The notes below the pieces were generated by a model. It saw nothing but the letters and a program-made list of their open reading frames with translations, searched no databases and was not told the origin of the DNA. From contig JAQBQB010000028.1 in NCBI GenBank assembly GCA_028287235.1, positions 1-64,000 of the forward strand: a stretch of 64,000 nucleotides of DNA, written 5' to 3'. This DNA is from Gemmatimonadota bacterium (GTDB taxonomy: Bacteria; Gemmatimonadota; Gemmatimonadetes; Gemmatimonadales; Gemmatimonadaceae). How positions within the stretch are numbered: position 1 is the stretch's first letter; each line of letters starts with the position of its first letter. Shown one piece after another: positions 10,101 through 21,050 of this stretch. A program made the position numbers and the translations under genes.

Positions 10101-11432
10101 ATGCCATTTCACTTCTCGTTGTCCATCCGCGCAACCGCTCTCGGTGCCGCGCTCTCGATCGCGAACGTCGCGTCCGCGCAGCAGCTCGCACCGGTCGAGC
10201 AGCGCGTTCGGAGCTATCTCCAACAACATCGCGCCGACGAAGTCGCCCTGCTGGCGAAGTCGGTGAACATTAAGAGCCAAACGCTCGATCTGGCGGGCGT
10301 GCGCGCCGTGGGTGCGCTGTACGGCAAGGAGCTCGAGGCGCTCGGATTCAAGACGCGCTGGGTGAGCATGCCGGCGGCGATGCACCGCGCCGGCCATCTC
10401 GTGGCCGAGCGAACGGGGGGCTCGGGCAAGCGGCTGCTGTTGATCGGCCACCTCGACACCGTGGTCGAAGGCGACACGCTCGGCTTCGCGATGCTCGACA
10501 CCGTCACGGCGAAGGGCGCCGGCGGCAACGACATGAAGGGCGGCGACGTCGCGATCATCTACGCGCTCAAGGCGCTCGACGCCGCCGGCGCGCTCGACAA
10601 CACGTCGATCACCGTGATCATGACGGGCGACGAGGAGGCGGCGGGTGATCCGCTCAGCGTTGCCCGCGCGCCGCTCATCGACGCGGCGAAGCACAGCGAC
10701 ATCGCGCTCGGCTTCGAGGGAGGCAACCCGAGCGATGCGACGGTGGCCCGTCGCGGCGCGAGCTCATGGCTGCTTACCGTGAGCGGAAAGGGCGCGCACT
10801 CGGCCGGTATCTTCAGCCAGGGCGCCGGTTACGGCGCGATTTACGAGGCGGCGCGCATTCTCAATGAGTTTCGCGTGCAGCTCGCCGGCACGCCGAACCT
10901 GACGTTCAACCCGAGCGTGATCGTCGGCGGAACAGACGTGACGTACGATTCCATGAAGGTGGCCGGCACGTCGGCATCGAAGCTCAACATCATCGCGGCG
11001 AACGTGTCGGTGAGCGGCGACCTGCGCTTCCTCACCGAGGGGCAGAAGGACTCGACGCGCGCGCGGATGCGAGGCATCGCGACGCACGACAATCTGGCCG
11101 GCACGTCGGCGAAGATAGACTTTGCAGATGAGTATCCTGCAATGGCGCCCACGCCGGCCAACTACGCCGTGCTCGCCGTCTACGATTCGGCGAGCCGGGC
11201 GCTGGGGTACGGTCCCGTCGCGGCGCTCGACCCGAGCCGGCGCGGCGCCGGGGACATCTCGTTCGTGGGACCGCTCATTCCGGGGCTGGACGGGTTGGGC
11301 GCGATGGGCTCCGGCTCGCACACTCCGAACGAGCGCGTCGATCTGCGATCACTTCCCATGCAGACCGAGCGCGCCGCACTGCTGATCTACCGCCTCACGC
11401 GCCCGGCGAGCAGCCGGGCGGTCACACCGTAG
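10101..11432 (+). CDS. Exported M20 metallopeptidase (glutamate carboxypeptidase type)
   Basis: A 443-residue protein with a signal peptide (cleavage near ASAQQ, residue 27) and the full M20 dizinc site: GHLDTV (His, Asp), GGNDMKGG (bridging Asp), TGDEEAAG (general base Glu and ligand Glu), LGFEGG, and the C-terminal His in GSGSHTPNE. The lid/dimerisation domain spans about 210-330. M20A enzymes of this type remove C-terminal glutamate or act as dipeptidases; here it probably scavenges peptides outside the cytoplasm. It converges with a second M20 peptidase only 4 bp away. Confidence 0.88.
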   Translation: MPFHFSLSIRATALGAALSIANVASAQQLAPVEQRVRSYLQQHRADEVALLAKSVNIKSQTLDLAGVRAVGALYGKELEALGFKTRWVSMPAAMHRAGHLVAERTGGSGKRLLLIGHLDTVVEGDTLGFAMLDTVTAKGAGGNDMKGGDVAIIYALKALDAAGALDNTSITVIMTGDEEAAGDPLSVARAPLIDAAKHSDIALGFEGGNPSDATVARRGASSWLLTVSGKGAHSAGIFSQGAGYGAIYEAARILNEFRVQLAGTPNLTFNPSVIVGGTDVTYDSMKVAGTSASKLNIIAANVSVSGDLRFLTEGQKDSTRARMRGIATHDNLAGTSAKIDFADEYPAMAPTPANYAVLAVYDSASRALGYGPVAALDPSRRGAGDISFVGPLIPGLDGLGAMGSGSHTPNERVDLRSLPMQTERAALLIYRLTRPASSRAVTP

Positions 11433-11436
11433 CGTA

Positions 11437-12852
11437 TTAGGGAACCGTCTTGGCCGCTGCCATCTCCTTGACGAGGCGGTAGAGGAACTCTTCGCTGTCG
11501 TAGTACGACTTGATCAGCACGCGCTCGTCCTTGCCATGGGCGCGTCCGTCATTCGGATCGCCAAATAGCCCCGAAACGCCGTAGCCGGGAATTCCGATCG
11601 CGCGGAGATATTTGCTGTCCGTGGCGCCGGTGCCCATGGTCGGAATGACGAGTACGCCCGGGCCGAACATGTCGCGCGTCACTTTCTCGATCGGTCCCAT
11701 GATCTCGGGCGACAGCGGCGACGGAGCGGCACGCTCCATCGTGGGCGCGCGCGAGATCTTCACGCCGGTGTCGTTGATGGCGGCGAGGAGCGCGGCACGC
11801 ACGTCGGCCGGGTCGTGGCCCGGCGCCATGCGGCAATTCACGTTGGCGATGGCCGTCTGCGGCAGCGCGTTGCGCGCGTGACCGCCGGAGAGCATCGTCG
11901 CGACGCACGTCGTGCGCAGCATGGAGCGGTAGCGCGGATCGGCGTTGAGCGTGGCCGAGGCGGCGGCGTCACCCGGGTTGGCGAGGATGGCGCGCATTGC
12001 GGCGCCAACGGCGGGCGTCTCGATCGTCGCGGTGCGCTCGAAGAACGCCTTCGTCACCGGATTGAGCATCACCGGAAACTGGAATGCGCCGATGCGCACG
12101 AGTGCCTGGGCCAGCTCGGTGATCGCGTTGTCGTCGCGCGGCACGGACGAGTGTCCGCCGCGGTTGGCGGTGGACACGGTGAAGTTGCCGGAGACCTTTT
12201 CCGCGGCACCCACCGAGTTGATGAACGGCTTGCCGTCGCGCAGCGAGCCGCCGCCGCCTTCATTGAGCGCGTACGCGGCGTCGATCAGCTCCTTGTGGTT
12301 GGCAATGAGCCAGCGGACGCCGTTGGCCGGTCCGCCCTCTTCATCCGCGGTGAGCGCGAGGACGATGTCGCGGTCGGGGACGAAGCCTTCCTTCTTCATC
12401 CGGATCAGGTTGGCGATGAAGATCGACGCCATCGCTTTGTCGTCGCTCGTGCCGCGGCCGTAGTAATAGCCGTCGCGCTCGGTGAAGACGAACGGGTCGA
12501 GGTCCTGCGACCAGTCGGTCTTGAGCGCGGCGACCACGTCGAGATGGGCGAGCAGCATGAGCGGCTTCCGCGCACCGGTGCCGTGGTAGCGAAGAACGAG
12601 ATTGCCCTTGTCGGCGCGCGGGCCGCCCTGAAAGATGTCCGACGCGGGAAAGCCGGCGTCGAGCAAACGCTTGGCGACGGCGCTCGCGGCCACCGTCGTG
12701 CTCCCCACGGAGTCGGCGGTGTTGATCTCGATCAGCTCTTTATAGATGTCGTGCGCGAGCTGCTGCTGTGGGTTCAGCGCGCCCTGTTGGGTCTGGGCGG
12801 CGAGCACGGCGGGAAAGGCAATCGTTGCGAGGCTGGCAACGCGAAAACGCAT
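11437..12852 (-). CDS. Exported M20/M25/M40-family peptidase
   Basis: A 471-residue secreted peptidase with signal peptide MRFRVASLATIAFPAVLAAQ. Zinc ligands are in LLAHLDVVA, GRGTSDDKA, LTADEEGG and LNEGGGG, with the final His near the C-terminus (DGRAHGKDER). The extra N-terminal helix and longer lid resemble the M20F/carboxypeptidase-S-like group rather than the neighbouring M20A enzyme. It is likely a peptide-scavenging enzyme of the periplasm. Its 3' end is 4 bp from that of the other M20 gene. Tandem REP-like repeats lie just upstream. Confidence 0.85.
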   Translation of the reverse strand: MRFRVASLATIAFPAVLAAQTQQGALNPQQQLAHDIYKELIEINTADSVGSTTVAASAVAKRLLDAGFPASDIFQGGPRADKGNLVLRYHGTGARKPLMLLAHLDVVAALKTDWSQDLDPFVFTERDGYYYGRGTSDDKAMASIFIANLIRMKKEGFVPDRDIVLALTADEEGGPANGVRWLIANHKELIDAAYALNEGGGGSLRDGKPFINSVGAAEKVSGNFTVSTANRGGHSSVPRDDNAITELAQALVRIGAFQFPVMLNPVTKAFFERTATIETPAVGAAMRAILANPGDAAASATLNADPRYRSMLRTTCVATMLSGGHARNALPQTAIANVNCRMAPGHDPADVRAALLAAINDTGVKISRAPTMERAAPSPLSPEIMGPIEKVTRDMFGPGVLVIPTMGTGATDSKYLRAIGIPGYGVSGLFGDPNDGRAHGKDERVLIKSYYDSEEFLYRLVKEMAAAKTVP

Positions 12853-13423: not shown

Positions 13424-13738
13424 ATGGTCACCTTGCGCGTCGTCCGCCACGACCGCCACGAGCAGGTGCTCGCCGAATGCCAGAGCGCCGCGATTCCGGC
13501 GCGCGGCGAGGTTCTTCAGCTCGATACGGTCAACGAGCGCGGAGAGCCGTATCGCCCGAGCACGCTCTGGCGCGTGGTCTCGGTGACGCTGCACGTGCCG
13601 TCGCTGGCGTCGTCGAAGCCCGCGAACGGTGCTCCGCTGTGCGTGGAGCGCGTCGAAGTCAACGTGCTGCCCGACGTCTCGCTAGTACCCGAATTCGCGG
13701 CGGCCGCCGAGCGAATTCTGTCCGAATCCAAGATGTGA
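13424..13738 (+). CDS. Conserved hypothetical protein next to the protein kinase
   Basis: A 104-residue soluble protein with no signal peptide and no recognised domain; the middle contains RGEVLQLDTVNERGEPYRPS. GGGAG lies about 9 nt before the ATG. It ends 22 bp before the tandem-kinase gene and is probably transcribed with it, so it may be a partner or substrate, but nothing in the sequence shows this. Confidence 0.55.
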   Translation: MVTLRVVRHDRHEQVLAECQSAAIPARGEVLQLDTVNERGEPYRPSTLWRVVSVTLHVPSLASSKPANGAPLCVERVEVNVLPDVSLVPEFAAAAERILSESKM

Positions 13739-13760: not shown

Positions 13761-15536
13761 ATGACCGACCCGCAACCCGAGATGTACAGCGTCACCCAGG
13801 AGCTCCCCGCGCATCTGCGCGACTGGCAGCTTCCGCCGGGATGGAGCTGGGGGGCTGAAGGACTGAACACGGAGCATCGGCACTACCAGGAGCTGATCGA
13901 CGCGCTCGGACGCTCGCTCTCGCTCGTGAGCGCACCCGATCCGGCCCACCACAAGTGGCTCGAGGTGGAGGCGCGGCACCTCGCGCATCGCAACCACCCG
14001 GCGATGCCGACAACGTACCACTACTGGGCGTCGTTCCAGGAGAGCCGTCGCGGGCCCGGCTACCTGCGACGCTGGATCGCCGGCGAAACCATCGGGGCGC
14101 GATTGCGCCGCATGGGCACCGACGACGTCCCCGGCGTGCTCCGCGTAATGCGCGAGATCGGCTCGGCGCTGAGCTACCTGCACGACGTCGGCACCGCGCA
14201 CGGCTGCATGTCGCCCGAAACCGTGTGGACCACGCCGATGGGACGGCTGTGGATCATCGGTTGGCAGTGGGCCATGTCACCGGTCGAGATTCCGTTCGGC
14301 CTCGTCCCGGATTTTCGCTTCATGCCCATTCCGAAGGAATGGACGAACGGCCTCTGGACGCCGAACGCGCTGAGCGACCAGTGGCAGCTCGCGGCCGTCT
14401 GCTTCGCCATTCTCACGGGCGAAGCGCCGCCGCCCGACGAAGCGCCGCCCATTCAACTGCTGCGACCCGACTGTCCGCAGTCGGTCGCCGCGGTGATCGA
14501 CCGCGCGCTCCAAGCAGACCCCGCGCGACGATATCCATCCATGGCGGCGATGCTGCGTGCCGTGGACCGCGTCGTCGGCAGCCGCACGATGGTCATGCTC
14601 GCGGGCGACGAGCCGGGCACGAAGTACACGACAGAGTCGGCCGAGGTACGCCTGCGTTGGGCGCTCGCCGACGACTACGAGGTGCTCGCCGCACTCGGCG
14701 CGGGCTCCTTCGGATCGGTGTGGCGCGTGCGCGATCTCTCGCTCGGCCGCGAAGTGGCGCTCAAGCTGCTGCACCCGCACGTGGCGCGCGACGAGCGCAT
14801 CGTAGGCCGGTTTCGGCGTGAGGCGCGCCTCGCGGCGCAGCTCGCGCACCCAGCGATCGTGCCGATCTTCGATTGGGACAGTCGCGGCGACGTGGCGTGG
14901 TACACGATGGAGCTGGCCGAGGGCGGATCCGTGGCCGATCTCATCGCGCGCTCCGGGCCGCGTCCGCTCACCGAGATCGCGCCGCAGGTGGACTTCATTC
15001 TCAGCGGGCTCTCGTCGGCGCACTCGGTGGGCATCGTGCACCGTGACTTGAAGCCGGAGAACGTGCTCATCGACCGGTACCGCCGTTGGCGATTGGCGGA
15101 CTTCGGCATCGCGAACGTGACGGGGGAAGAAGTGGCCGGCGCGTCGGGTACTCCGGCCTTCGCGCCGCCGGAGCAACTGCTCGGCGAGCCGCAGGACGCC
15201 GCCGCCGACTGTTTCTCGATCGCGGCGATCGTCGCGTACGCCATGAGCGGGTTGGCGCCGTTCGGCGAGCGCGACAGCGCATCGATCCTCGCGCGCGAGA
15301 TGCAGGGCGACGTCGATCTCACGCCCTACCCGCCCGAGATCGCCGACTGGCTGCGGCTCGGTCTGTCTCCGTCGCCCGACGATCGCTTTCAGGACGCAGC
15401 CGCGATGCAGCTCGCCTGGCGCGAAGCGGTGCAGATCGTCTTCGAGCGCGAACGTCAGGTGCCGTGGTGGCGGCGATGGTTCGCCCCCGATGGCTCGGGA
15501 GTCGCATGGACTGGAGACTCTCTCTTCACGGCGTAA
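13761..15536 (+). CDS. Tandem pseudokinase-kinase Ser/Thr protein kinase
   Basis: A 591-residue soluble protein with two kinase-like folds. Residues about 25-275 follow the helical layout of a kinase but lack the glycine loop. The catalytic HRDLKPEN is replaced by HGCMSPETV (147-155) and DFG by IGW (166-168), so this half should be inactive. Residues about 305-565 form a normal Hanks-type kinase: GAGSFGSV loop (313-320), K335 in VALKLL, HRDLKPEN with D429, DFG with D447, and APPEQ. A short basic/aromatic tail ends it. There is no membrane helix or extracytoplasmic sensor, unlike PknB-type kinases. The pseudokinase half may regulate the active half. It likely phosphorylates cytoplasmic targets on Ser/Thr. 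Confidence 0.88.
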   Translation: MTDPQPEMYSVTQELPAHLRDWQLPPGWSWGAEGLNTEHRHYQELIDALGRSLSLVSAPDPAHHKWLEVEARHLAHRNHPAMPTTYHYWASFQESRRGPGYLRRWIAGETIGARLRRMGTDDVPGVLRVMREIGSALSYLHDVGTAHGCMSPETVWTTPMGRLWIIGWQWAMSPVEIPFGLVPDFRFMPIPKEWTNGLWTPNALSDQWQLAAVCFAILTGEAPPPDEAPPIQLLRPDCPQSVAAVIDRALQADPARRYPSMAAMLRAVDRVVGSRTMVMLAGDEPGTKYTTESAEVRLRWALADDYEVLAALGAGSFGSVWRVRDLSLGREVALKLLHPHVARDERIVGRFRREARLAAQLAHPAIVPIFDWDSRGDVAWYTMELAEGGSVADLIARSGPRPLTEIAPQVDFILSGLSSAHSVGIVHRDLKPENVLIDRYRRWRLADFGIANVTGEEVAGASGTPAFAPPEQLLGEPQDAAADCFSIAAIVAYAMSGLAPFGERDSASILAREMQGDVDLTPYPPEIADWLRLGLSPSPDDRFQDAAAMQLAWREAVQIVFERERQVPWWRRWFAPDGSGVAWTGDSLFTA

Positions 15537-15556: not shown

Positions 15557-16951
15557 ATGGCGATCGAGACGGTCAACCCGGCCACAGGCGAGATCATCCG
15601 CGCGTTCAACGCGCACACGGACCTCGAGATCCAGGACAAGCTGGCCGCCGCGCAGCGCGCGGCGCGGAGCTGGCGCGCTGCACCCATGGCCGAGCGGACG
15701 AGCGTGGTGCGCCGCGCCGGCGAGCTGCTCGAAGCGCGGAAGCAGGAGTATGGGCGGCTGATGACGCTCGAGATGGGCAAGCCGCTCGCCGCGGCGATCG
15801 AGGAAGCGGCGAAGTGCGCGACCGCCTGTCGCTTCTACGCCGACAACGCGGAACGATTCCTGGCCGACGAGCCCGTGGAGGCCAAGGGCGAGCGCAGCTA
15901 CGTGGCGTTTCAGCCGCTCGGCGTGGTGCTCGCCGTGATGCCGTGGAATTTTCCGTTCTGGCAGGTCATTCGCTTCGCCGCGCCGGCACTCTGCGCCGGA
16001 AACGTGGGGTTGCTCAAGCATTCGTCGAACGTGCCGCAGTGCGCGCTGGCGATCGAGCAGCTGTTCGAGGAAGCAGGAGCGCCGGGCGGCACCTTTCAAA
16101 CTTTGCTCATCGGCTCCGAGACCGTCGCGGGCCTGCTCGCCGACGACCGCATTGCCGCGGCCACGCTCACGGGGAGCGAAGGCGCTGGGAGCAGCGTTGC
16201 GTCGGCGGCTGGGAAGCACATCAAGAAGACGGTGCTCGAGCTGGGCGGAAGCGATCCGTTCATCGTCATGGGGAGCGCTGATCTCGACGCGGCGGTGAGC
16301 ACCGCGGTGAAGGCGCGCACGATCAACAACGGCCAGTCGTGCATCGCCGCGAAGCGGTTCATCATCGACGAGGCGATCGCCGACGACTTCATCGAGCGCT
16401 TCGTGGGTAAGATGCGCGCGCTCGTCGTGGGCGATCCGATGGACGCGCGCACGAGCATCGGCCCGCTGGCGACGGCGAAGATTCGTGACGACCTCCACGA
16501 CCAGGTGGAGCGGTCCGTCGCCGCCGGTGCGCGGCTGTTGCTGGGCGGGCGCAGGGTCGACGGGAGGGGCTTCTTCTACGAGCCCACGGTGTTGGTGGAC
16601 GTCACGCCGCAATCGCCGGTGTTCCGTGAAGAGACGTTCGGCCCGGTGGCCGCCATCATCCGCGCCCGCGACCTGGAACATGCGATCGAGCTGGCGAACG
16701 ATTCGCGCTTCGGCCTCGCGTCGGCCGCGTGGACGCGTGAGGAGAGCGAGATGGATCAGTTCGCGCGCGAGCTCGAGGCGGGAAGCGTGTTCATCAACGG
16801 CATGGTGGCGTCGGATCCGCGGTTTCCGTTCGGCGGCGTGAAGAAGTCCGGGTACGGGCGAGAGCTGGGCGAGTTCGGGATTCGAGAGTTCGTGAATATC
16901 AAAACCGTAAGGGTGATGGGCGGTGGGCAGGCGAGCGGAAATACCGAGTAG
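15557..16951 (+). CDS. NAD(P)-dependent aldehyde dehydrogenase, succinate-semialdehyde type
   Basis: A 464-residue aldehyde dehydrogenase. It has the Rossmann region MPWNFPFWQVIR, the catalytic Glu in LELGGSDPF, the nucleophile Cys in NNGQSCIAAKRF, and EETFGPVAAI plus the C-terminal PFGGVKKSGYGRELG. Sequence style and length are closest to GabD1-like succinate-semialdehyde dehydrogenases, which feed succinate to the TCA cycle; substrate choice is inferred. The ATG at 15557 is chosen because AIETVNPATGEI is the family N-terminus; open frame upstream of it belongs to the kinase gene read in another frame. It lies 20 bp after the kinase gene. Confidence 0.88.
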   Translation: MAIETVNPATGEIIRAFNAHTDLEIQDKLAAAQRAARSWRAAPMAERTSVVRRAGELLEARKQEYGRLMTLEMGKPLAAAIEEAAKCATACRFYADNAERFLADEPVEAKGERSYVAFQPLGVVLAVMPWNFPFWQVIRFAAPALCAGNVGLLKHSSNVPQCALAIEQLFEEAGAPGGTFQTLLIGSETVAGLLADDRIAAATLTGSEGAGSSVASAAGKHIKKTVLELGGSDPFIVMGSADLDAAVSTAVKARTINNGQSCIAAKRFIIDEAIADDFIERFVGKMRALVVGDPMDARTSIGPLATAKIRDDLHDQVERSVAAGARLLLGGRRVDGRGFFYEPTVLVDVTPQSPVFREETFGPVAAIIRARDLEHAIELANDSRFGLASAAWTREESEMDQFARELEAGSVFINGMVASDPRFPFGGVKKSGYGRELGEFGIREFVNIKTVRVMGGGQASGNTE

Positions 16952-17099: not shown

Positions 17100-20000
17100 C
17101 TAGGCCACGTGCAGCGAGATCGTCACCACGGTCCCCGCCCCCGCCGCGCTCTCCACCGCAATCTCTCCGCCCCACGCCTCCACGAGCTGGCGGCTGATCG
17201 CCAGCCCTAGCCCACTTCCGCTCGTTCGCGTGGAGAAGTGCGGCTCGAAGATTCGCGGCAGCACGTCGGCGGCAATGCCCTGGCCGTCGTCGCGCACGGT
17301 AATCACGGCGCGGCGGGCGCCGTCGTCGCCGGCCAGCGCGACGGACACGCTCACCGTCTTCGCCTGCGCGTGGCGCGCGTTCTCGAGCACGTTGAGCAGG
17401 ACTTCCTTCAGCTCGTCGGCCCGCGCGAGCGCGCGCACCGGCACGTCGACGCCCCGCTCCTGCCAGTCGAGCCCCTTCTCGGCGCCCATCCGCTCGAGCG
17501 ACACGACCTCGCGCACCACGCCCGCCACGTCCGTCGACGTCGCGGTGCCGCGCTCCTCCGGCGCGGCGCCGTACCGGCTGAAGGCGCGCGCGATCTCGTC
17601 GAGCCGGTCGATCTCGGTGAGAATCTGATTCACGTTCTGCTCCAGCACGCGGTCGAAATCGACGCGGGCGTCGGCGCGCGCACGGCGAAGGTGCTGCACG
17701 CCGAGCCGAATCGGGGTGAGCGGATTCTTGATCTCGTGCGCCACCTGGCGCGCCATCTCGCCCCAGGCGAGCACGCGCTGCGCGCGCGCCAACTCCGTGA
17801 CGTCGTCCACGGTGACCACCGCTCCGCCGCGCGAGAGCCGCGTGAGCGTACCGCGAAGCTGTTGGTGCTCGAGCGACAGCTCGATGACTTCGTCGTCGAG
17901 GCCACTCATGAGGAAACGCTCAACAGCCGCGGCGATCGGCATCGGCGCGCACGATTTGAACGGCGTGCCCGCCGGCAGCGGACAGCCGAACAGTGCCTCG
18001 GCACGCGGATTGGCGAGCGACACGCGGCCGTCGGTATCGACGGCGACCACGCCGCTGCCCACGTTGCGCAACACGGCGGCCGTTCGCCGCTGCGCCTCCT
18101 CGAGCTCCGTACGGCTTGCGTTGAGATCCGCCGCCATGCGGCGGAAGGCGGTGAACACGGGACTGAACTCCACCGTGGGCTCCGCGTCGAGCGGAAAGGC
18201 GCGTGCACCGCCGGCGATCGACAGCGCCGCCGCGCGCAGCGTGCCGATTGGACGCGCCAGCTCCCGCGCCGCCAGCCCGCTGAGCCAGAGCGCGGCGAGC
18301 GCGCCGACCGCCGTCGCGAACAACACGAGCACGCCGAGGTCGCGGCGCCTCCGGCCGAGCGCCAGCTCGTCGGCCCTGGCGGGGGCCGCGATCACCGTCG
18401 ACACCGGAGACGCGCCGGGCACCGCCCGATAGCCGAAGAGCGCAGCGCTGCCGTCGACCGGTTCGAGCCGCGTGTCCGTCTCTTCATCGCGAACGGTGAG
18501 TTTGAGCTCCGTGTCGCGCGGCAAGTAGCGCCCGATTGGCGCGAGGTCGGCATAGAGCTGGTCGCTCGCTTCGCGCAGCTCGCCGCCCTGATAGAGCAGG
18601 AGCGGCGTGTCGAGGCGGTCGCTCTCCGCCGGCAGCCAGAGCGCGGCGTTCGGCGGAGGCGTGAGCGCGCGCAACGTTGCGCTGATCAAGAGTGCGCGCG
18701 ATTGTGTCGCGTCGGTCGCGAGCTGGCCGTACGACCAGATCGCGAAGGCGATCGCCGGAATGATGAAGAAGGCAAACAGCGCGAGCGACAACCGGGCGCG
18801 GTAGCTTCGCCCCCACGTTCTTCGGCGCGCGCGCAGCCAACGACCCGCGCCGCCGTCGGCAATGACGCTCGCCAACCACAGCACGCCGACAATCGCGAGG
18901 TCGAGCAGCACGATCAACGCTCCGCGCTGCACAAGCGCGTAGAGAGGCCGGAGCTCGACCTCGACGTGCGCGGCCGCCGCGCCGGTGCCGGTGCGAACGA
19001 TGCCGTCGCCGTGCAACTGGCTGCCTTCGCGTCGCCAGTTCACGGCGCCGTTCGCCAAGCCCGGCGCGGCGCGGTCGCGCAAGCGCACAGTATACGGCGG
19101 CTCGGCTTCCGCATCCACGTCGAGGCCGAGCAGGCGCGCGAAGGGATCGGCCTCGAACAGCCGGCTTTTGGGCGCGAGCACCACGGCCGTGACGCCGCCG
19201 GCGGCGGCCCGCGCCGCCATCACCAGCTCGACGGCCGTGTCGGTGGGCACCGGTCCGATGACCACCGCCCCCGTGCGCCGCGCCTCGGCCACGAGGGCGG
19301 CGATCGCGGCTTTCGGCACGGGAATCTGCGACGTCTCGAAATGCGCCACCGGTCCGGAATCGGTCGGCCAGGACGATATCGCGATCGGATTCCCTGCCGC
19401 GGAGATGTCGGATCTCACATAGTCGAGCAACATCGCTTGACGCGTATCTGGCGCGTAGCCTGCCGCGAGGTCGGCGCCAAAGCGCCCGAGCAGCGTGATC
19501 GCGACCGAGTCGACCTGGCTGAGGCCCTGTAGGTCGCGCACCGCCGCGTCGACGCGCCCGCGCGCCGTGCGCGCCCAGACGAGCGTGGTTGCGCCGAGCG
19601 CGGCGACAGTGGCCGCGCTGAGGATGACGAAACGCGTGCGCCGGCTCAGCGCGAGCATGGCGATTGCCGCGATCCAAAGAATGGCGTACCACCAGGGCCA
19701 GCGGCCCGGCGCATCCCACACCACGGGCGCGAGCACCGCCGCGATCGTGGCCGCCACCGGTGCGACCCAGGGCGCCAACCCGCGCCGGACGCCGAGGACG
19801 ATCGCGCCGGCGGCGGCGCCCGCCAGCAGCACGGACACGGCGGCGAGAAAGAGCGGAATCTCCCAGATCAGCCAGAGCGAGCCGTCCACACCGTGCAATG
19901 GAATCTGCACGCCGCGCGCGAGCTCGCGCAGCATGAAGGGACCGAGACCGGCGACGAGGAGGATGGTGGCAATCGCGCCCCAGCGCGACGCGCGATGCGC

Positions 20001-21050
20001 CTGCCGGCGAAAGACCGCGAGGATGCCGAGGAGCACGATCGAGCTCGTCGTCGCCAGCGCGCCGGCGTTGCCGGTGAGCGGACCGCCGCGCGGCGTGAAA
20101 TAGATCGACGGATCGAAGAGCCGCGTGAGGTTGGAGTACTGGTTCAGCGGAACGAGCGCCGTGCACGCGAGGCCGACGGCGAGCGCGCCGACGCGTCGCG
20201 ACAGCACGCGCGTGCCGCGCCACACGCCGATGACGAAACAGGCCAGCGCCAGAATGAACGCGAGGCCGGCGCGCGCGCGAACGCGCTCGAGCACGCGCTG
20301 AATCACTTCGCCCTGGACGAGCGGCTTGGCGCGTACGTCGAACAGCGGGCCGCCGTCGACGGTGTAGTGCAGCACCTCGGCGCCACGCGAGCTGTCGCTT
20401 GCCGGCGCGAAGTCGAAACCACTCAGACCGGCGTCGGCCGCCACGCGCTTGGCGAGCGCCGACGACAGCTTGTCCGCCGGCGCCTCGGCGGCGAGCAGAG
20501 TGACGGCCACGGCGCGCAGCGGCGTGCCGTTGTCCTCGCGGTGCTGCATCACCTGCATCGCCAGATAGAAGGGCGTCGCCACGATCGTGGCACCTTCGAA
20601 CTGCGGATCGACCGGCGATCGGATGACGCCGGCCCACGCGAGCGCGCTGTCGCCGCGATACAGCACAAGGCCCGCCTCGTCGCGATCGGGCACGAGCGGC
20701 GCCAGCGCGTCGAACGCCTGCGTGCGATCGGCGGGGGCGCCGAGCGCCGCCACCGCCGAACGCACGGACGACGACAGCGCGCCGTCGAGCGCGGTCTTGA
20801 GCGCCGCGAGTCCGGCGACGGCGCTGTTCCGACGCCACGCGTCCCACTCGTGATTGATCCGCCACAGGCTGCGCTGCGCCGGCGTGGCGAACACCGCGGC
20901 GGCGGCGAGGAACACGGAACAGGCGGTGGCCCAGCGTCGCTGAACGCCGCGAATGCGCACCGCCGTAGCCAGTGCCGCGGCGGTGGCGACGAGGAGCGGG
21001 ACGAGATACTCTACGCTCGGTGCGTGAAGCCACTGGCTGGCGGCGAGCAA
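17100..21050 (-). CDS. Very large multi-sensor NtrY-like histidine kinase
   Basis: A 1316-residue membrane kinase. After one or two N-terminal helices comes a soluble module (about 60-250), then a block of roughly seven to eight helices (about 255-500), a second soluble module (about 510-720), a helix, another helix near 760, a third module (about 790-920), and then a helix with a HAMP-like linker. A PAS domain (VLRNVGSGVVAVDTDGRVSL) precedes the phosphoacceptor H1105 in RQVAHEIKNPLTPIRLG, as in NtrY. The ATPase domain has LLNVLENARHA, DDGQGIA and GSGLGLAIS. The start used is TTG at 21050; the reading frame stays open upstream and WTWWAIAASAALLAA just upstream looks like membrane helix, but no ATG/GTG exists there. 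The N-terminus is therefore uncertain. The signal sensed is unknown. Confidence 0.85.
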   Translation of the reverse strand: MLAASQWLHAPSVEYLVPLLVATAAALATAVRIRGVQRRWATACSVFLAAAAVFATPAQRSLWRINHEWDAWRRNSAVAGLAALKTALDGALSSSVRSAVAALGAPADRTQAFDALAPLVPDRDEAGLVLYRGDSALAWAGVIRSPVDPQFEGATIVATPFYLAMQVMQHREDNGTPLRAVAVTLLAAEAPADKLSSALAKRVAADAGLSGFDFAPASDSSRGAEVLHYTVDGGPLFDVRAKPLVQGEVIQRVLERVRARAGLAFILALACFVIGVWRGTRVLSRRVGALAVGLACTALVPLNQYSNLTRLFDPSIYFTPRGGPLTGNAGALATTSSIVLLGILAVFRRQAHRASRWGAIATILLVAGLGPFMLRELARGVQIPLHGVDGSLWLIWEIPLFLAAVSVLLAGAAAGAIVLGVRRGLAPWVAPVAATIAAVLAPVVWDAPGRWPWWYAILWIAAIAMLALSRRTRFVILSAATVAALGATTLVWARTARGRVDAAVRDLQGLSQVDSVAITLLGRFGADLAAGYAPDTRQAMLLDYVRSDISAAGNPIAISSWPTDSGPVAHFETSQIPVPKAAIAALVAEARRTGAVVIGPVPTDTAVELVMAARAAAGGVTAVVLAPKSRLFEADPFARLLGLDVDAEAEPPYTVRLRDRAAPGLANGAVNWRREGSQLHGDGIVRTGTGAAAAHVEVELRPLYALVQRGALIVLLDLAIVGVLWLASVIADGGAGRWLRARRRTWGRSYRARLSLALFAFFIIPAIAFAIWSYGQLATDATQSRALLISATLRALTPPPNAALWLPAESDRLDTPLLLYQGGELREASDQLYADLAPIGRYLPRDTELKLTVRDEETDTRLEPVDGSAALFGYRAVPGASPVSTVIAAPARADELALGRRRRDLGVLVLFATAVGALAALWLSGLAARELARPIGTLRAAALSIAGGARAFPLDAEPTVEFSPVFTAFRRMAADLNASRTELEEAQRRTAAVLRNVGSGVVAVDTDGRVSLANPRAEALFGCPLPAGTPFKSCAPMPIAAAVERFLMSGLDDEVIELSLEHQQLRGTLTRLSRGGAVVTVDDVTELARAQRVLAWGEMARQVAHEIKNPLTPIRLGVQHLRRARADARVDFDRVLEQNVNQILTEIDRLDEIARAFSRYGAAPEERGTATSTDVAGVVREVVSLERMGAEKGLDWQERGVDVPVRALARADELKEVLLNVLENARHAQAKTVSVSVALAGDDGARRAVITVRDDGQGIAADVLPRIFEPHFSTRTSGSGLGLAISRQLVEAWGGEIAVESAAGAGTVVTISLHVA

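Follow-up and report, generated by a model that had tools for sequence, protein, structure and literature searches.

A pseudokinase fused ahead of a PknB-like Ser/Thr kinase in the Gemmatimonadales: a conserved tandem protein and its possible mode of control

The gene examined here, P0001, lies on the forward strand at positions 13761..15536 of the window, i.e., the whole stretch of 64,000 nucleotides that was analyzed, and encodes a cytoplasmic protein of 591 amino acids in which a catalytically dead kinase copy is fused ahead of a working Ser/Thr kinase. The pseudokinase half (residues 1-274, with the fold itself at approximately 16-273; 13761..14582) is followed by an interdomain linker (residues 275-294; 14583..14642), which is mostly of low model confidence (pLDDT < 50 at residues 274-290), and by the active PknB-like kinase half (approximately residues 295-560; 14643..15440). 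On the same strand, a small protein of 104 amino acids is encoded at 13424..13738, 22 bp upstream of P0001, and an aldehyde dehydrogenase resembling succinate-semialdehyde dehydrogenases at 15557..16951 (PF00171, 476 bits; NF006915, 673.8 bits against a cutoff of 730). A preliminary description of the locus had taken the small protein as the only clear operon neighbor of the kinase and thereby missed the dehydrogenase gene, which starts 20 bp downstream. The reverse strand at 17100..21050 encodes an NtrY-like membrane histidine kinase of 1316 amino acids with a HAMP-PAS-HisKA-HATPase architecture and approximately 11 hydrophobic segments in a Kyte-Doolittle scan; no response regulator was seen beside it in the window, and its upstream neighbor is a divergent creatininase-family gene. 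Positions 10101-12852 hold two secreted-looking, peptidase-like proteins (M20-type by eye), encoded back to back on opposite strands, and no defense genes were seen beside P0001.

The second half of the protein has every catalytic residue, as had been described before: the VAIK Lys, αC Glu, HRDxKPEN, DFG, APE and the αH-αI Arg show no variation among 50 orthologues, among them the HRD, K, P, E and N of the catalytic loop HRDLKPEN (residues 427-434; 15039..15062) and the DFG motif (residues 447-449; 15099..15107). Pfam assigns PF00069 to residues 306-515 at 139.4 bits (cutoff 31.7). Judged by the residues used to define Hanks-type kinases (VAIK Lys, αC Glu, HRDxxxxN, DFG), this half is a bacterial Ser/Thr kinase, and its nearest known relatives are of the PknB/PknA/StkP type, with PknB the nearest. 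Kinase genes of this class are numerous in the organism's own genome (G000), which has 44 PF00069 matches in total and approximately eight Ser/Thr kinase genes arrayed within 18 kb on another contig (C6:64034-81716); a similar array is present in a relative (G011, C10:422733-436914).

The first 300 residues match no family in a Pfam scan of P0001. In a phmmer search against PDB chains, the N-terminal half matched Mycobacterium tuberculosis PknA (E 1.3e-10 over residues 58-271), followed by PknE, PknB and Aurora kinases. An AF2 model of the first 275 residues, built with 25 orthologues, reached a mean pLDDT of 90.5 and a pTM of 0.89 and places the N-lobe strands and helices αC, αE, αF and αI in canonical kinase order, and a Foldseek search with this model returned PknB (E 3.5e-15, TM 0.73-0.76). 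Because the model, the structural match to PknB and the sequence match to PknA agree, the N-terminal half can be assigned a kinase fold, in line with the architecture proposed for it in the preliminary description. P0001 thus shares its fold in both halves with PknB, PknA and StkP but differs from them in containing two kinase domains instead of one.

What this fold has lost is its catalytic equipment. No glycine loop was found in the alignment of the N-terminal half, and the β3 Lys is absent, with V, T or I at this site in Gemmatimonadaceae and Arg in all 16 rows from two sister families. In P0001 itself, HGC stands where HRD is expected, within the loop HGCMSPETV (residues 147-155; 14199..14225) that replaces HRDLKPEN. 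The missing glycine loop and the altered catalytic loop had both been described correctly. Across rows, the HRD site reads HG[A/C] or RR[IV]: of the 33 Gemmatimonadaceae rows, 32 have A, C, S or G in place of the Asp and one keeps the Asp but still has no β3 Lys, and all 16 sister-family rows have Arg. The loss of DFG had likewise been recognized, but the proposed replacement, IGW, was read one residue early; the relatives' ITDLR sets the register at GWQ (residues 167-169; 14259..14267). Most Gemmatimonadaceae rows have GWQ or GWE here, with W168 invariant in the 33 rows, and the sister families have DLR in 15 of 16 rows and DVR in the remaining one. All rows share the αC Glu, APE Glu, αF Asp and αH-αI Arg, as would be expected where the fold has been retained. 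On the combined grounds of alignment and model, the N-terminal half is assigned as a pseudokinase, i.e., a kinase fold from which the canonical catalytic residues are gone, with the one HRD Asp as an exception.

A rival reading is that the N-terminal half keeps a non-canonical activity such as the AMPylation carried out by SelO or the glutamylation carried out by SidJ. The invariant αC Glu is in keeping with this, as is the HG-x-x-S-P loop, which superficially resembles the HG motif of SelO in Table 1 of a review of bacterial pseudokinases (PMC12599244). However, the β3 Lys and the metal-binding Asp are both retained in SelO and SidJ according to that review (PMC12599244), whereas Gemmatimonadaceae almost always have neither and the sister families carry one Arg in place of the Lys and another in place of the HRD Asp, and we regard such an activity as highly improbable.

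The substitution pattern indicates that purifying selection acts on the pseudokinase half. In 21 pairs, dN/dS was 0.11-0.25 for this half versus 0.08-0.18 for the kinase half, ratios which are rough since dS is near or above 1 in these pairs. The N-terminal half evolves faster than the kinase half, as would be the case for a decaying evolutionary remnant; its low dN/dS, its approximately 44 columns invariant across Gemmatimonadaceae and its retention across the order speak against decay, which is largely refuted by the dN/dS values and hardly credible as an explanation.

Within Gemmatimonadaceae, conservation of the pseudokinase half is centered not on the catalytic sites but on the N-lobe β-sheet and hinge (β2-β3, β4, β5), with a mean entropy of 0.93 bits in the N-lobe versus 1.40 in the C-lobe. 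The windows of lowest entropy are 96-109, 43-60 and 78-90, and the best-conserved stretches are RGPGYLRRW (97-105), above all, together with DALGRSLSL (47-55) and 78-90. This bias may hint at an interface. As it is slight in the sister families (1.15 versus 1.21 bits) and also present in the active half (0.63 versus 1.18 bits), a better-conserved N-lobe is not specific to the pseudokinase.

Conservation of this kind bears on two further explanations. The N-terminal half could mainly be a dimerization module, in which back-to-back pairing of N-lobes promotes trans-autophosphorylation of the active domains. In structure it lies closest to PknB and PknA, its conservation in Gemmatimonadaceae is highest in the N-lobe, and back-to-back dimers of the MviN pseudokinase are described in the review (PMC12599244); the active PknB-like half, however, could dimerize alone, and we consider a role mainly in dimerization improbable. 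Alternatively, the pseudokinase could be a docking or scaffold domain in the manner of MviN and EssB, which recruits substrates or partners, e.g., the neighboring histidine kinase or its response regulator, and leaves the intrinsic kinase activity unchanged. In the review cited above, those bacterial pseudokinases for which data exist act mainly as scaffolds, MviN and EssB among them (PMC12599244), and the most conserved stretch, RGPGYLRRW, is a non-catalytic motif; the histidine kinase gene, moreover, is directly coupled to the tandem gene in most Gemmatimonadaceae (see below). Yet the pseudokinase is covalently joined to an active kinase in an order that does not vary among the three families, which accords no less well with control in cis, and no adjacent partner gene is conserved across the whole order. 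Scaffolding is the main rival reading, ahead of dimerization, albeit a rather doubtful one.

Pseudokinases placed next to kinases have precedents, of which those in bacteria had not entered the preliminary description. In PglW (BREX type 2/Pgl phage defense) and a subset of DndF proteins, an inactive pseudokinase is followed by an active Ser/Thr/Tyr kinase (PMC12839542); PglW has two kinase-like domains, of which only the second carries the predicted ATP-binding and catalytic residues, and autophosphorylates (PMC4365076). P0001 likewise has its inactive kinase directly before the active one, and the PADLOC model of PglW is colinear with its residues 127-558. In view of these systems, the bare pseudokinase-then-kinase layout is not new in bacteria. 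PglW, however, is a protein of 1400-1600 amino acids with NERD nuclease, wHTH and iSTAND domains and is encoded in defense operons (PMC12839542), whereas the 591 residues of P0001 leave no room for such domains and its neighbors, an aldehyde dehydrogenase and a histidine kinase, form no defense operon. An assignment as PglW is ruled out by a score of approximately 90 bits against the curated cutoff of 990 and by the absence of the other domains, and an assignment as MAD6 by a score far below the cutoff and, again, the absence of the other domains.

Among eukaryotic proteins, the JAK/TYK2 kinases have a JH2 pseudokinase that precedes the JH1 kinase in one chain. The order in P0001 is the same, as the preliminary description had pointed out, and the resemblance is one of layout only: P0001 has no FERM or SH2 domains and no known receptor partner, and its kinase is of the bacterial PknB-like Ser/Thr type with HRDLKPEN rather than a tyrosine kinase. 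MviN, of the ActPs3 family, is similar in that a PknB-like pseudokinase fold has lost all three catalytic motifs, and different in that it is fused to a membrane protein instead of a kinase and has other motifs (VALT, lsidhpsr), as given in the review (PMC12599244). The review discusses seven families and contains neither the word "tandem" nor a mention of Gemmatimonadota; its family signatures include GLW at the HRD site, VALT with a deleted activation loop in ActPs3, DYD with a Lys-to-Arg exchange and a lost αC Glu, and DLHK with a retained HRD Asp (PMC12599244). The N-terminal half differs from GLW, ActPs3, DYD and DLHK in its motifs (HG[A/C] or RR[IV], GWQ or DLR, αC Glu invariant), a distinction drawn, for these four families, from the motifs described in its text and not from the authors' profiles. 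Overall, the tandem family appears to be undescribed so far.

The two kinase folds fill the 591 residues, no sensor domain was found in P0001, and a hydrophobicity scan revealed no transmembrane helix; the single 19-mer above the threshold, 484-502, lies within a helix of the kinase fold. To this extent, the earlier statement that the protein has no sensor or membrane domain stands, but with respect to the membrane it may be wrong given a conserved amphipathic tail which had gone unnoticed. In P0001, this tail carries the basic-aromatic motif WWRRWF (residues 569-574; 15465..15482). Most Gemmatimonadaceae have WWRR[WL][FLV] or near variants, with conservation values of 0.85 for W569, 0.91 for W570 and 0.91 for R572 amid poorly conserved residues, and the C-termini of most sister-family rows are likewise basic and amphipathic, with sequences such as FLRRLAALF or SLLKRLVRWF. 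The tail is thus a candidate peripheral membrane anchor in the form of an amphipathic helix, for which a literature search on amphipathic-helix kinases found no match. Whereas PknB and StkP each combine PASTA domains with a transmembrane helix, P0001 has no such helix and ends in the amphipathic tail instead.

The tandem arrangement is widespread among relatives. Full-length matches at 57-83% identity were found in most of Gemmatimonadaceae, and a profile built from the pseudokinase half detected it in 80 of the 87 sampled genomes of this family (E < 1e-60). Four of the seven genomes without the tandem belong to one genus, g7, in which all four sampled genomes (G011, G120, G137, G259) have none. 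Two sister families of the Gemmatimonadales contain the full tandem in 17 genomes (16 loci plus G046), and in six other families of the class (f4-f9; 42 genomes) a profile search gave matches to the C-terminal half only and no tandem. Among the 80 loci listed by a motif-keyed contig scan, the clear two-half matches were all from Gemmatimonadaceae, Gemmatimonadales or Gemmatimonadetes. The tandem is normally present in a single copy per genome; two genomes of one genus have a second, diverged copy (G030, C77, L046; G115, C9). Conservation across three families places the arrangement far beyond chance, and it is neither the case that the first half has another fold nor that the arrangement is missing from relatives, the two outcomes which the preliminary description had named as speaking against it.

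In a FastTree phylogeny of 83 kinase domains (274 columns) that included halves from three families, the N-terminal halves form one clade (0.991) and the C-terminal halves another (0.999), and the sub-clades of Gemmatimonadaceae and the sister families separate within both. The two clades with the same family splits argue for a single fusion or duplication of ancient date with vertical inheritance thereafter, and the tandem is, on this phylogenetic evidence, an ancient, vertically inherited and order-wide family of the Gemmatimonadales. A recent self-duplication, in which an N-terminal half derives from its own C-terminal half, is unsupported since the two clades do not group together, within the limits set by long branches; in the sister families, the two halves are still approximately 34-37% identical to each other.

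The gene neighborhood is less constant than the protein. The small 104-amino acid protein, for which the preliminary description envisaged co-conserved homologues, matched no family in Pfam or NCBIfam and occurs, always upstream of the tandem kinase, in 10 of 59 genomes, namely in the genus of the window and four near genera; beyond this subclade, there was one match only (E 0.003). As the kinase is order-wide, the small protein is ruled out as a conserved partner and, by this distribution, is a feature of the subclade. The aldehyde dehydrogenase gene is on the same strand in the 10-genome subclade and convergent, on the opposite strand, in eight other Gemmatimonadaceae loci. The histidine kinase, which was absent from the preliminary description as an upstream gene, is more closely tied to the tandem kinase: outside the subclade, 21 Gemmatimonadaceae loci are informative once one paralogue and two loci at contig edges are disregarded, and in 18 of them its orthologue lies directly upstream on the same strand, at a spacing of -4 to +16 nt in 16 cases. 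The two genes therefore form an operon-like arrangement in most Gemmatimonadaceae; within the subclade of the window, the segment with the tandem kinase is inverted with respect to the histidine kinase. Homologues of this large histidine kinase were found across the order. In the sister families it is 30-32% identical and encoded elsewhere in the genome, and genus g7 retains a histidine kinase of the neighboring type without the tandem kinase, so that the linkage is specific to Gemmatimonadaceae and non-obligatory. No operon partner co-conserved with the tandem kinase across the whole order was found.

Taken together, we favor, at slightly better than even chances, a role in which the pseudokinase controls the fused PknB-like kinase in cis or within a dimer. 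In Gemmatimonadaceae, the pseudokinase probably binds no ATP productively. It would pack on the kinase domain via its N-lobe, similar to the back-to-back dimers of bacterial kinases, and in this packed state would set the activity of the kinase domain, while the amphipathic tail would hold the protein at the inner membrane; the input, in Gemmatimonadaceae, may be a stimulus sensed by the neighboring histidine kinase. By analogy with the JH2 domain of JAK, autoinhibition is somewhat more likely than activation as the sign of this control. The AF2 model of the full-length protein has a pTM of 0.52 and a disordered linker, and an interface between the two domains can therefore not be claimed. A more far-reaching and speculative idea, which we think unlikely to hold as a whole, is that JAK-type control evolved independently in the Gemmatimonadales, giving a peripheral-membrane kinase with a fused pseudokinase switch that, in Gemmatimonadaceae, is wired to a membrane histidine kinase and would connect a two-component sensor to a Ser/Thr kinase.

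Very little work has been done on bacterial pseudokinases, and the review cited above contains no case of one in tandem with an active kinase (PMC12599244). As a compact two-domain protein that has no other domains, is usually single-copy and occurs order-wide, the tandem kinase of the Gemmatimonadales offers a clean test system, which could show whether the control of a kinase in cis by a pseudokinase has also arisen in lineages other than eukaryotes, and whether histidine kinase and Ser/Thr kinase signaling meet there.
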